NCBI RefSeq assembly: GCF_002631185.1
Contig: NZ_PDNU01000017.1
Location: forward strand, 1-64,000
Source of the DNA: Teichococcus rhizosphaerae
GTDB lineage: Bacteria > Pseudomonadota > Alphaproteobacteria > Acetobacterales > Acetobacteraceae
Length of the DNA stretch: 64,000 bases
Reading direction: 5' to 3'
Shown: positions 8,819 through 47,346 of the stretch, one piece after another
Position numbering within the stretch: position 1 is the first letter of the stretch
Layout: every line of letters starts with the position of its first letter
Position numbers and translations under genes: made by a program
The notes under the pieces: generated by a model
The model's input: the letters and a program-made list of their open reading frames with translations, nothing else
What the model was told of the DNA's origin: nothing
Databases searched by the model: none

Positions 8819-9808
8819 CTACAGCCAGCCCTTGCGCTTGAAGTAGAGGATCGGCAGCACGGCGCTGACCACCATCACCAGCAGCGCGGCCGGATAGCCG
8901 AACTGCCATTGCAGCTCGGGCATGGCGGCGAAGTTCATGCCGTAGATGCTGGCCACCAGCGTGGGCGGCATCAGCGCCACGCTGGCGACGGTGAAGGTCT
9001 TGATGATGCCGTTCTGGTCGATGTTGATGATGCCCAGCACCGCGTCGAGCAGGAAGTTGGCCTTGTTGTTGAGGAAGGCCGCGTGCTCCACCAGCGAGCG
9101 CACGTCGCGCATCAGGGTCTTGATGCCGCCCTTGTTCTCCTTGCGCACGGCGATCGACTTCTCGGCGCCCACGAAGGAGAGGATGCGCGAAAGGCCGAGC
9201 AGCGTCTCGTTGGCGCGGCTGGTCACCTCGCCCACCTGGCCGAGCGCGATCAGCACGTCCTTCAGGTCGGCGTCGCGCGCCTTCACCTTCACCTTCTTGG
9301 TGCTGCGGGCGTTGCGGAAGGCGGATTTGCTGGCGCGGTCCATGTCGGCGCCGATGCGCTCCAGCACGTCCGCCAGCCGGTCCACCACCGCCTCGAACTG
9401 CGCCAGCATCACGCCGTCCGGGCTGGCCAGAAGCGCGGGCGTGCGCAGCACGCGGTTGGCGAAAAGGGCGAAGGCCTTGGGCGTCGCGTAGCGGACGGTG
9501 ACGAGGCTGCGCTCGGCCAGCACGAAGGTGATGGCGGTGGAGCCGAACTCCCCCTCATCCACCCCGTAGAGGAAGCTGGCGGTCAGGAAGAGCGCCTCGT
9601 CCTCCTTGTAGAGGCGCGAGGAGCTCTCGATCTCCTGCATCTCCTCCCGCGTCGGGATCTCCAGGCACAGCGCCGCCTGGACCGCCTTCTCCTCCTCCGG
9701 GCTGGGGTTGAGCAGGTCGATCCAGACCGCGTCGCGCAGCGCCTCGGGCGCCGGGATGCCCTCGTGGCGCAGGGTCCGGCCCTCGCGCACGGTGTAGGTG
9801 GTCATCAT
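8819..9808 (-). CDS. corA: CorA-like magnesium/cobalt transporter
   Basis: Inner-membrane divalent-cation channel of 329 residues. A large N-terminal cytoplasmic domain is followed by a long helical stalk (EHAAFLNNKANFLLDAVLGIINIDQNGIIKTFT) and two C-terminal membrane helices. The signature Gly-Met-Asn of the selectivity loop is present in YGMNFAAMPEL at the end of the first helix, and the C-terminus is basic (FKRKGWL). Two consecutive ATG codons can start it. It sits 65 bases downstream of mtnC, so it may be co-transcribed with the methionine-salvage operon, though nothing functional links them. Confidence 0.95.
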   Translation of the reverse strand: MMTTYTVREGRTLRHEGIPAPEALRDAVWIDLLNPSPEEEKAVQAALCLEIPTREEMQEIESSSRLYKEDEALFLTASFLYGVDEGEFGSTAITFVLAERSLVTVRYATPKAFALFANRVLRTPALLASPDGVMLAQFEAVVDRLADVLERIGADMDRASKSAFRNARSTKKVKVKARDADLKDVLIALGQVGEVTSRANETLLGLSRILSFVGAEKSIAVRKENKGGIKTLMRDVRSLVEHAAFLNNKANFLLDAVLGIINIDQNGIIKTFTVASVALMPPTLVASIYGMNFAAMPELQWQFGYPAALLVMVVSAVLPILYFKRKGWL

Positions 9809-9873: not shown

Positions 9874-10629
9874 TCAGGCGGCGGAAAGGCGCGGCACGGG
9901 TAGGCCGAATGCCGCCGCGACGCCAGGGAAATCCTCGGCCCAGGGGTGCCGCCCGCTGGCCGCCGTGCCGTCCTGCGCCCGCACCAGCTGGCAGACGCGC
10001 AGGCCGGCATGCGCCGCCGCGTCCAGCTCCTCCGCCACGTCGGACAGGAACAGGATCTCGGCCGGCGGCCGGTGCAGCCCCTGCGCGATGGCGGCGTAGC
10101 TGGCCGCTTCCCGCTTGCCGCCCACCGCCGTGTCGAAGAAGCCGCCGAAGAGCGGCGTCAGGTCGCCGGCCAGGGAATGGCCGAAGAGCAGCTTCTGCGC
10201 CGCCACCGAGCCGGAGGAATACACCGCCAGGAACAGGCCCGAGCGCGCCCAGGCGCGCAGGCAGGGCGCCACGTCCGGCCAGAGATGCCCCTCGATCTCG
10301 CCGCTGACGAAGCCCTGGCGCCAGATCAGCCCCTGCAGCGTCTTGAGCGGGCCGATCTTGGCGTCCTCGGCCATCCAGCGTCGCAGCGCGGCGCGCTCGT
10401 CCTCGCCCGGCTTGGCCATGAGCCGCACCTCGCGCAGGCAGGCGGCCACCGCCGCCTCCTCCGCATGGGCGTCGAGGAAGGCGTCCAGCGCCCGCTCCGC
10501 GAAGGGGAACAGCGTCTCCTTCACGAAGGCGATGGCGCTGGTGGTGCCCTCGATGTCGGTCAGCACCACGCTGAGCGGCGCCGCTCCCGCGCCACCCGGA
10601 GCCATGCCGCCCGCCACGTTGCCGCTCAC
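9874..10629 (-). CDS. mtnC: Acireductone synthase (enolase-phosphatase) MtnC
   Basis: HAD-superfamily enzyme of methionine salvage. It enolises and dephosphorylates 2,3-diketo-5-methylthiopentyl-1-phosphate to the acireductone that MtnD uses. The 251-residue protein shows motif I LTDIEGTTS, motif II YSSGS, the lysine in KREAASY and motif IV FLSDVAEELDAA. The ATG overlaps the mtnD stop by four bases, so translation is coupled. The first 18 residues are Gly/Ala-rich and variable, so a later start is possible but none is better supported. Confidence 0.95.
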   Translation of the reverse strand: MSGNVAGGMAPGGAGAAPLSVVLTDIEGTTSAIAFVKETLFPFAERALDAFLDAHAEEAAVAACLREVRLMAKPGEDERAALRRWMAEDAKIGPLKTLQGLIWRQGFVSGEIEGHLWPDVAPCLRAWARSGLFLAVYSSGSVAAQKLLFGHSLAGDLTPLFGGFFDTAVGGKREAASYAAIAQGLHRPPAEILFLSDVAEELDAAAHAGLRVCQLVRAQDGTAASGRHPWAEDFPGVAAAFGLPVPRLSAA

Positions 10630-11165
10630 CCGGTCACCGCGGGGAAGCGCTCGGAGATGTCGGTGCCGGTGTAGTGCGGCGTCCAGCCCGTGGTGTCGGT
10701 GAAGACGCGCAGCGCCGTGACGCGCGGCTCGGTGCCGGCGTCGAACCAGTGCTGGGTGTTGGCCGGCACGCTGATCAGGTCGCCCCGGGTGCAGTGCGCG
10801 TCATACACCTTGCCGCCCACATGCATGATGAAGTTGCCGCTGCCCTCGTGGAAGAAGCGGATCTCATCCTCCGTGTGGGTGTGCTCGGACAGGAACTTGG
10901 CGCGCAGCGCGTCCTTCTGGGGGTGGCTGCTGTCCAGCTTGATCACGTCCGCCGTGCCGGCGTTGCTGCCGGCCATGAAGGCGTCGAGCTGCGGGCGGTA
11001 GGCCTCCAGCACGGCCTCGGCCGGGGCGCCCTCCGGCAGGTCGGCCACCTGCCAGCGCTCGAAGCGCACATTGATCGGCGCCAGCGCCCGGGCGATCTCC
11101 TCCGCGTCGCTGGTGCGCAGCAACTCGGCGCCGGTGGCGGCGTCCTTGACGGTCAGAAGGCTCAT
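10626..11165 (-). CDS. mtnD: Acireductone dioxygenase MtnD
   Basis: Cupin dioxygenase of methionine salvage, 179 residues. With iron it makes the keto acid precursor of methionine; with nickel it makes an off-pathway product. The metal-binding pattern is intact: His-x-His-x4-Glu in EHTHTEDEIRFF and a second histidine in VPANTQHWFDAG. The frame is open upstream, but the ATG at 11165 gives the normal length and overlaps the mtnB stop by four bases. The gene order TRAP-mtnB-mtnD-mtnC is joined throughout by such overlaps. The nearby urease nickel supply makes the metal form in vivo an open question. Confidence 0.95.
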   Translation of the reverse strand: MSLLTVKDAATGAELLRTSDAEEIARALAPINVRFERWQVADLPEGAPAEAVLEAYRPQLDAFMAGSNAGTADVIKLDSSHPQKDALRAKFLSEHTHTEDEIRFFHEGSGNFIMHVGGKVYDAHCTRGDLISVPANTQHWFDAGTEPRVTALRVFTDTTGWTPHYTGTDISERFPAVTG

Positions 11166-11815
11166 CGGCTCCTCCGCTCCTGTAATTCGCATTCCAGCAT
11201 GAATTCGAGCGCCTCCAGCCGGGCCAGCGCCGCATCCATGTCCCGCGCCCATACATAGACGCCATGGCCCCGGATCAAATAGCCCGGGGGAATGACAGAA
11301 CCGGTGGCGGGGGAAATGGCAGCCATGCCATCCCAGCGCGCATCCACCGCCCGCTGCAGCCGGGCGATGTCCTGGTCGTTGTCGAACACCGGCAGCGTCA
11401 CCGCCGCCTCGTGGGTGGGCAGGCCGGGAAAGGCCTTCAGCAGCTCGTAGCCGGCAAGCTCGATCCCCTCGCCCGCCTGGCGGGACAGCACGGTGTTGGC
11501 CACGGAATGGCCGTGCAGCACCGCGCCCGCCTCGGGGAAGCGGCGGTAGATGCCGCAATGCAGCAGCGTCTCGGCCGAAGGACGCGCCCCCGCCTCCTCC
11601 GGCCGTCCCTCCAGGTCCACCCCCATCACCGAATCGGCGTCGAGGAAGCCCTTGTGCCGGCCGGAGCGGGTGATGGCGACGCGGCCGCCCGGCAGCCGCA
11701 CGGAGAAGTTCCCGGCCGTGGCCGGCACCCAGTGGAAGCGGTCCATGCGGCGCCCGGCGCCGATGATGGCCTGGATGGCGGCGTCGGGGATGGCCAGGGA
11801 GGAGGATGGGCTCAT
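11162..11815 (-). CDS. mtnB: Methylthioribulose-1-phosphate dehydratase MtnB
   Basis: Class II aldolase-fold, zinc-dependent dehydratase of 217 residues that converts 5-methylthioribulose-1-phosphate to the diketo substrate of MtnC. Family landmarks are TAGNFSVRL near residue 33, the zinc histidines in LHGHSVANT and in IRGHGVYVWA, and the catalytic Glu region PSAETLLHCGIYR. The start ATG overlaps the stop of the TRAP permease gene by four bases and its own stop overlaps mtnD. The kinase and isomerase genes (mtnK/mtnA) are not in the window. Confidence 0.94.
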   Translation of the reverse strand: MSPSSSLAIPDAAIQAIIGAGRRMDRFHWVPATAGNFSVRLPGGRVAITRSGRHKGFLDADSVMGVDLEGRPEEAGARPSAETLLHCGIYRRFPEAGAVLHGHSVANTVLSRQAGEGIELAGYELLKAFPGLPTHEAAVTLPVFDNDQDIARLQRAVDARWDGMAAISPATGSVIPPGYLIRGHGVYVWARDMDAALARLEALEFMLECELQERRSR

Positions 11816-13803
11816 GCGGCGGGCTCCGGTCTGCCGGCGGGGTGGATGCGGCGCTGATACAGCACCAGCGCCACCGTGCCAGCCACGCCCAGCATGTCCG
11901 TGTAGCCTTCGGGCACCATCAGCGAGAGGCCGAGCAGCCCCGCCGCCAGCCGCAGAACCGGGGGCAGCGGGCCGTTCAGCATCCAGCCCTCCGTGGCGCA
12001 GGCCAGCATCCACACCCCCGCCACCGCGGTCGCCACCGCCAGCAGGATGCCGGGCAACGGCCCCTGCGCCAGCAATGCCGGCGAGATCCAGAACAGGAAC
12101 GGCACGATGAAGGTGGCCAGTCCCAGCTTCACCGCGATGAGGCTGGTGCGCCAAAGGTCGGCCCCCGCCATGCCGGCGGCGGCGAAGCTGGCGAGCGCCA
12201 CCGGCGGCGTGATGGCCGAGAGGGTGGCGTAGTAGAAGATGAACATGTGCGCCACCAGCGGCTCCACCCCGATGCGGGTGAGGCCCGGCGCCACCACGGC
12301 GGCGGCGATGGCGTAGGCCGCGGTGGTGGGCACCCCCATGCCGAGGATGATGGCGACCCCCATGGAGAACAGCATGGCCAGGAAGGTGGAGGCACCGGCG
12401 ATCTCCAGCAGCAGGCTGGCGAAGCGCCCGCCCACCCCGGTGAGGCCGATGACGCCGGCCACGATGCCCGCCGTGGCGCAGACGGCGATGAGCTGCATCA
12501 TCTCCCGCGCGCTGCCGGAAAGCGCGCCATAGATCGCCCCGGCCGTTTCGCGCGCCGCGCCGGCGATGGCGGCGGCGGCGCCCTGCCCGCCCAGCGCCAG
12601 CCGGTGCGCCAGCGCGGTGCCGAGCATGATGACGATGGTGGCGCCGATGCCCCAGGCGGCGGCGCGGAAGGGCGAGAAGCCGATCACCAGCATCCAGATC
12701 AGCAGCACCAGCGGCGCCGCCATGTAGGCGCGGCGGGCCAGCGCCACCCAGCGCGGCAGCTCCTCGCGCGGCAGGCCATGGATGCCGGCCTTGCGGGCGT
12801 TGAGGTCGCAATGGATGTAGTTGGCGACATAGAACAGCAGCGCCGGGATCAGCCCCGCCAGGGCGATCTCGGTGTAGGGCACGCCCAGCACCTCGGCCAT
12901 GATGAAGGCGCCCGCCCCCATTACCGGCGGCGTGATCTGCCCGCCGGTGGAGCTGGTGGCCTCCACCGCGCCCGCCGTGGCGCGGTCATAGCCCACGCGC
13001 CGCATCATCGGGATGGTGAACATGCCCGAGGCCACCACGTTGGCCACCGCCGAGCCCGAGATGGTGCCGAACAGCAGGCCGGACAGCACCGTCACCTTGG
13101 CCGGTCCGCCGCGTGCCCAGCCCACCGCCGCCAGCGCCAGGTCGTTGAAGTAGGTGCCGGCGTTGGACACCTGCAGAAAGGCCGCGAAGGTGACGAACAT
13201 GGCGATGAAGGTGGCCGAGACCTGCACCACCGTGCCCAGCAGGCCGTTGTTGCCGAACACCTCGACCAGCGCCGGCGCCAGCTCCACGCCCCGGTGGTAG
13301 AGCGGCCCCGGCATCCAGGGGCCGATGAAGCAGTATACCAGGAACGCCGTGGCGATCGCCGGCATGATCAGCCCGGCGGTGCGGCGGGTGAACTCCAGCA
13401 CCAGCAGGATGCCCAGCCCCGCCGCCGCCAGGTCCCGCCAGTTGGGGCCCATGAAGGAGCGCATCTCGATGCCGTCGGCATCCAGCGCGTAGTGGGCGAC
13501 GATGAGCAGGCAGGGCAGCATCAGCGCCCAGTCATGCCAGGGGATGCGCGAGCCCCCCTGCCGCCCAGGCGCGAACAGCGCGAAGCCCAGCGCGGCGCCG
13601 ATGAACACATGCGCGGCGCGCGACACGGTGGGGTCGGCCGGCACCACCAGCAGCACCCAGAGATGCCAGGCGATGAAGGCGGCGCCCACCGCCTGCCAAA
13701 GCCTCCCCTGCCAGCCCGCCAGCGCGCGCCGCGAATTGGCGAATTCCAGATCGTCGACCGGCGTGGTCCCGCCAGCCGCCTGCATGGCGCCCGAATGCGT
13801 CAA
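11812..13803 (-). CDS. TRAP transporter fused permease (DctQM-type)
   Basis: Polytopic inner-membrane protein of 663 residues, the fused small-plus-large permease form normally paired with a TAXI-type binding protein. The large-subunit part has the conserved GQITPPVMGAGAFIMAEVLG and GMGVPTTAAYAIAAAVVAPGL segments, and ITPPVALASFAAAGMAG near the C-terminus. No binding protein is encoded next to it. Its stop overlaps the mtnB start by four bases, placing it first in a methionine-salvage operon. Substrate is unknown; the operon suggests a methylthio-sugar or related sulfur compound, as inference only. Confidence 0.93.
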   Translation of the reverse strand: MTHSGAMQAAGGTTPVDDLEFANSRRALAGWQGRLWQAVGAAFIAWHLWVLLVVPADPTVSRAAHVFIGAALGFALFAPGRQGGSRIPWHDWALMLPCLLIVAHYALDADGIEMRSFMGPNWRDLAAAGLGILLVLEFTRRTAGLIMPAIATAFLVYCFIGPWMPGPLYHRGVELAPALVEVFGNNGLLGTVVQVSATFIAMFVTFAAFLQVSNAGTYFNDLALAAVGWARGGPAKVTVLSGLLFGTISGSAVANVVASGMFTIPMMRRVGYDRATAGAVEATSSTGGQITPPVMGAGAFIMAEVLGVPYTEIALAGLIPALLFYVANYIHCDLNARKAGIHGLPREELPRWVALARRAYMAAPLVLLIWMLVIGFSPFRAAAWGIGATIVIMLGTALAHRLALGGQGAAAAIAGAARETAGAIYGALSGSAREMMQLIAVCATAGIVAGVIGLTGVGGRFASLLLEIAGASTFLAMLFSMGVAIILGMGVPTTAAYAIAAAVVAPGLTRIGVEPLVAHMFIFYYATLSAITPPVALASFAAAGMAGADLWRTSLIAVKLGLATFIVPFLFWISPALLAQGPLPGILLAVATAVAGVWMLACATEGWMLNGPLPPVLRLAAGLLGLSLMVPEGYTDMLGVAGTVALVLYQRRIHPAGRPEPAA

Positions 13804-14161: not shown

Positions 14162-14440
14162 TCAGGCCGCCGGGTGGGACGAGGTGGAGGTGTTCGGCTG
14201 CGTGCTCGCGTTGCGCGCCTGGGCGGGGCTCGCCGGGCCGGAGATGTTGCCGGCGGGCGGCGCGGGCGGCGCGTCGGCCGCCATGGAGGCATCCTTCTCG
14301 TCGTCCTCCTTCATGTTCTGCTTGAAGGACTTGATGCCCTTCGCGAGGTCGCCCATCAGGCCGCTGATCTTCCCGCCGCCGAACAGCAGCAGGATCACGA
14401 GCAGCACGACAAGCCAGTGCCAGATGCTGAAGGAACCCAT
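14162..14440 (-). CDS. tatA: Twin-arginine translocase subunit TatA/TatE-like
   Basis: Pore-forming component of the Sec-independent Tat export system, 92 residues from MGSFSIWHW. It has one N-terminal membrane helix ([15 protein letters not shown]), the FGGGKI hinge and the amphipathic helix [21 protein letters not shown]. The tail is Ala/Pro/Ser/Thr-rich and unstructured. The frame extends six codons upstream, but MGSF is the family start. No tatB or tatC is adjacent, so the rest of the translocase must be elsewhere. Possible Tat clients in the window are the superoxide dismutase and the redoxin. Confidence 0.92.
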
Positions 14441-14801
14441 AGCCACGCCTCGATCCAATTTGGGCGGCCACCGGCGTGACGGGAATGCCCCAGCCAGCCT
14501 GACCGCGTCTCCTCGCCTTGATGCCGCAGACTACTGTCCCGCGCACCGTCGCGCAAACCAGGACATGGCGTGAATCGCGCCCGGAAACAACCACCCTTGC
14601 AACCGGATGACATTTCGTCCATTAAATCCGCGGATCCGGGCCCCTCTGGCGACCCGGCGGCCTCTGCGCCTCGCCGCGGACTGCCGCCTTCGTGATGTCG
14701 GATCGACTTCTCGTGCAATCCGGGCCCGGTCTGCATCCCCTGTAGCGATCCCTCCACGGCCGAAATGTGGCCGGGCCCCTATTCTGAGGAGCCGTCCCTC
14801 C
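14441..14801. other. Divergent promoter region and long leader of the TerC-family gene
   Basis: This 361-bp gap lies between divergent tatA and the TerC-family gene. It holds a candidate sigma-70-like promoter (14597-14625) pointing right, which would give a leader of roughly 170 bases. The leader contains two copies of an ATCCGGGCCC element (near 14634 and 14730) and a CGGCC/GGCCG stem shortly before the start. I do not recognise a known riboswitch in it. Confidence 0.5.
14597..14625 (+). promoter_or_regulatory. Candidate promoter for the TerC-family gene
   Basis: TTGCAA and CATTAA separated by 17 bases, in one of the few AT-richer stretches of the gap. The -35 match is good and the -10 match partial. 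Nothing else supports it. Confidence 0.35.

Positions 14802-45633: not shown

Positions 45634-47346
<1,713 letters not shown>

Follow-up and report, generated by a model that had tools for sequence, protein, structure and literature searches.

The fused TRAP permease encoded directly ahead of the methionine salvage genes mtnB, mtnD and mtnC in Teichococcus rhizosphaerae is, in our judgement, likely to belong to a stand-alone TRAP-TAXI importer of an organic acid, with a permease gene that lies in the gap between tatA and mtnB and is probably co-expressed with mtnBDC by position. The permease would form the membrane part of this importer, and its binding protein would be encoded far away, at C59 in the same genome (G000; 4.65 Mb, 113 contigs). 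The neighbourhood of permease and salvage genes is most likely positional, and we see no good evidence that the permease imports a sulphur compound; the original prediction suggested that it supplies the pathway with a methylthio compound from outside.

Within the window, that is, the whole 64,000-nucleotide stretch analysed here, the permease gene, mtnB, mtnD and mtnC follow one another head to tail on the minus strand (Table 1), and at each of the three junctions the neighbouring genes share exactly 4 nt (ATGA, ATGA and GTGA), so that the four-base stop-to-start overlaps described in the original prediction are borne out by both the coordinates and the junction letters. The first 30 kb contain 20 same-strand junctions, and the 3 within this run are the only ones with an overlap. 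The family assignments of the four genes are firm: the permease match to TIGR02123 (cut-off 320.65) extends over residues 42-651, nearly the whole profile, mtnB exceeds the cut-offs of both NF006672 and TIGR03328, and mtnD is assigned through PF03079 only, with no NCBIfam match. With the MtnB, MtnD and MtnC families adjacent, the locus qualifies as a methionine salvage operon. The start of the permease is uncertain, since a TTG at 13803, with GGGGGAG ahead of it, is followed by an in-frame ATG at 13785. Overlapping mtnB by four bases, the permease gene probably shares a message with mtnBDC; promoter and terminator scans returned nothing, no riboswitch match was found upstream, and no methionine riboswitch was found in the window. 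RNA elements elsewhere in the window include a terC element (RF03067, 46.6 bits, 14628-14710, plus strand) ahead of a TerC/Alx gene, and a 5_ureB_sRNA match (RF02514, 107.8 bits, 45788-46073, minus strand). The terC element falls inside the open reading frame listed for the TerC/Alx gene (from 14607), whose true start is thus probably further on, at about 14802.

Table 1 Genes of the permease-mtnBDC locus and its flanks, with positions in the window and profile matches
Gene	Product	Position	Strand	Profile matches	Remark
tatA		14162..14458	-	NF001940, 99 bits	conserved upstream neighbour of the tatA-mtnB gap
permease	TRAP transporter fused permease	11812..13803	-	TIGR02123, 594 bits; PF06808, 274 bits	
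mtnB	methylthioribulose-1-phosphate dehydratase	11162..11815	-	NF006672, 255 bits; TIGR03328, 192 bits	
mtnD	acireductone dioxygenase	10626..11165	-	PF03079, 114 bits	
mtnC	acireductone synthase (enolase-phosphatase)	9874..10629	-	TIGR01691, 267 bits	
corA		8819..9808	-	TIGR00383, 208 bits	conserved downstream neighbour, 65 nt past mtnC

The order permease-mtnB-mtnD-mtnC is not unique to this genome. It is shared by Pseudoroseomonas aestuarii, several Roseomonas, Falsiroseomonas tokyonensis and other Acetobacteraceae and spans relatives from the window to G038, whose permease is 56% identical; corA holds the same downstream place in relatives. The 4-nt overlap between permease and mtnB is kept in 8 of the 10 distinct loci having this order (the same overlap is found in L019, L020, L021, L023, L024, L030 and L132) and down to 65% permease identity (L030), while the two genes are 22 nt apart in L130 and separated by another gene in L129; in G038 the gene between permease and mtnB is ExoD-like by inspection. 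Persistence of the order as far as G038, with the overlap in most loci, speaks against a purely positional reading, because co-expression may be selected. An importer with a substrate unrelated to methylthio compounds could then be held in place by selection for co-expression with mtnBDC, for instance in the same growth state; we regard this as unlikely, for reasons that emerge from the behaviour of the permease gene in the rest of the family.

The standing order of the family is tatA-mtnB-mtnD-mtnC without the permease. This order was found in 20 of 20 sampled permease-free loci, in every one of which tatA and mtnB share a strand and their hit ends are 22-410 nt apart, and two of these loci come from the window's own genus (G016 and G107), both lacking this permease as well as its TAXI protein. 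Across 150 family genomes (orthologue thresholds of at least 53% identity for the permease and at least 50% for the TAXI protein), the permease was present in 8 of the 80 genomes with mtnB and missing from the other 72, and mtnB was missing from 5 of the 13 genomes with the permease. The presence of the permease is thus unrelated to that of mtnB across the family (mtnB in 8/13 genomes with the permease versus 72/137 without; P = 0.58, Fisher), with Fisher values here and below serving as a guide only because family genomes are related rather than independent samples and kinship is uncorrected. Beyond the family, mtnB is rare (9 of 189 other genomes in a class-wide search); in 8 loci of other alphaproteobacterial families, through which distant permeases near mtnB were sought, mtnB-mtnD-mtnC again forms one run, and no similar permease lies beside mtnB.

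Loss and relocation separate the two in both directions. In Elioraea, mtnBDC is gone and the permease still follows tatA wherever the contig reaches far enough before corA, several genomes showing tatA-permease and then corA; mtnA remains in the Elioraea-like genomes tested. In the Neoroseomonas/Roseococcus/Rhodovarius clade, the permease lies outside the gap, probably through relocation, and two members (G044 and G124) have an intact tatA-mtnBDC-corA block without it. Five genomes (G033, G045, G077, G097 and G125) have mtnA, with mtnB not found. A different TAXI-TRAP pair is convergent with mtnA in G045, G125, G038 and G097 (L170:8699-11672, L171, L172 and L173) and, by inspection, adjoins amino-acid ABC transporter and hydantoinase-like genes. 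As a second link between TRAP transport and the pathway this pair carries little weight: it lies on the opposite strand, beside those other genes, and both the window's genome and G005 have mtnA in a comparable block that lacks the pair.

A binding protein for the permease was sought elsewhere in the genome; the original prediction had it that TAXI, mtnA and mtnK genes are absent from the locus, which holds, and that the system draws on genes elsewhere. G000 encodes three fused TRAP permeases that pass the family cut-off (window, C20 and C32), along with three full-length TAXI proteins (C59, C32 and C20). The C32 and C20 TAXI genes adjoin the permeases there; the C59 gene (C59:21609-22730; PF16868, 234.9 bits) stands alone without a permease neighbour. 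Its orthologue is convergent beside the orthologous permease in five loci (L022, L025, L026, L028 and L029; Neoroseomonas lacus, Roseococcus pinisoli, a Rhodovarius assembly and two others; 69-76% identity) and lies directly upstream of the permease on the same strand in L037-L041, from more distant alphaproteobacteria (52-57%). Permease and TAXI orthologues also occur in the identical 13 of 150 family genomes (Fisher P of 1e-15 or lower), four further genomes having TAXI proteins at 46-49% identity without a window-type permease, and this co-occurrence is no by-product of adjacency because most of those 13 genomes have the permease and TAXI genes at separate sites. From linkage in relatives together with occurrence in the same genomes, we identify the C59 protein, with good confidence, as the partner of the window permease. 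The orphan TAXI gene is followed immediately by an asd-like gene of the same orientation (L014:7353-9731), and TAXI and asd-like genes are close together in L140, L143, L144, L145 and L146 as well. Three tandem TAXI copies in G038 (L146:7198-10655; 51-64% identity to the C59 protein) lie far from its permease.

With a fused large permease matching TIGR02123 and a cognate TAXI protein whose length can be aligned to solved TAXI structures (9oz4, 8s4j and 1us4; glutamate binders are among the solved TAXI matches), the system resembles VcGluP-VcGluQM of Vibrio cholerae (PMC11574862), but its permease and TAXI genes are unlinked in G000. The pockets also differ. VcGluP binds glutamate through Tyr45, Ser75, Gln93 and Glu125, and loss of Gln93 or Tyr45 costs it most affinity (PMC11574862). 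Tyr45 is retained in nearly all orthologues of the C59 protein, whereas VcGluP positions 75, 93, 123 and 125 are Pro, Thr, Tyr and Thr in all of them, whether linked to mtn genes or not. Because Ser75, Gln93 and Glu125 are replaced by Pro, Thr and Thr, the protein departs from the glutamate-type pocket of VcGluP and TtGluBP and its ligand is probably not glutamate. By the same residues the ligand is probably the same in all orthologues, with or without mtnBDC, which makes a substrate specific to MtnBDC unlikely. From general knowledge of TRAP transporters, the ligand would be an organic acid, and transport would be ion-driven uptake of a TAXI-delivered solute; permease and C59 TAXI protein would probably take up an organic acid through a pocket unlike the known glutamate type.

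For the salvage genes themselves, the internal route is complete. MtnP, MtnA and MtnBDC can salvage internally made methylthioadenosine with neither a transporter nor a methylthioribose kinase, and G000 has the route from methylthioadenosine to the MtnB substrate, with mtnP at C32 (311 bits) and mtnA at C37 (423 bits). The best reading is that MtnB, MtnD and MtnC run ordinary salvage of internal methylthioadenosine with these unlinked genes, as in classical methionine salvage (MtnP, MtnA, MtnB, MtnC, MtnD), from whose block the locus differs solely in having a TRAP permease as upstream neighbour instead of a direct tatA-mtnB junction. The expectation that the system draws on genes elsewhere therefore stands for TAXI, mtnA and mtnP and falls for methylthioribose kinase (mtnK, TIGR01767), which is without a match in G000 and nowhere passes the cut-off in the remaining 12 genomes with the permease.

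Import of an external methylthio compound for processing by MtnBDC, as originally proposed, could draw on the conservation of order and overlap across several genera, and MtnP and MtnA would offer imported methylthioadenosine a way into the pathway, but nothing points there. Methylthioribose, the compound suggested, would be a dead end because mtnK, the kinase for the imported sugar, is absent, and the characterised TAXI ligands found are glutamate-like, with no ribosides (PMC11574862). The mutual absences of permease and mtnB in the family, the survival of the permease through loss of mtnBDC and relocation, the pocket shared with and without mtnBDC, and the lack of a permease beside mtnB in the 8 loci from outside the family but within the class all argue against the proposal, and we consider it highly improbable. 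We found no report of a TRAP transporter tied to methionine salvage genes in the open-access literature, seen mostly as titles and abstracts. Less probable still is that the permease and C59 TAXI protein import methylthioadenosine or 2-keto-4-methylthiobutyrate through a new pocket, with Thr for the glutamate-binding Gln, lineages without mtnBDC using another route past mtnA.

In the permease tree, TAXI-permease operons of other alphaproteobacteria branch first, followed by a grade of permeases resident in the tatA-mtnB gap, with the relocated clade nested inside that grade (100/99), so that residence needs two changes. In the mtnB+mtnD tree, loci with the permease are scattered, and at least 4-6 changes in its presence are needed. 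Both trees fit a history of one arrival in the gap, one departure and several losses; alternatively, recombination in the flanks may have exchanged the gap between lineages. We infer the direction of these moves: the block tatA-mtnB-mtnD-mtnC-corA would have received the permease gene, between tatA and mtnB, in an ancestral lineage of this part of the Acetobacteraceae. The gap held the permease through repeated losses elsewhere, a retention that pure accident does not require and that counts against a positional reading. Selection for co-expression with mtnBDC, in turn, sits poorly with a permease that left the gap in a whole clade, stayed without mtnBDC in Elioraea, was lost many times on the mtnB+mtnD tree and has no riboswitch or promoter match upstream.

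An operon-like overlap would here mislead the prediction of function, and overlap is no evidence of a shared substrate. Comparison with relatives tells the stable housekeeping block apart from a transporter gene of changing presence, and exposes the unlinked TAXI partner. That partner points to a TAXI subfamily whose pocket is conserved but differs from the glutamate type, and the ligand of this subfamily can be assayed.
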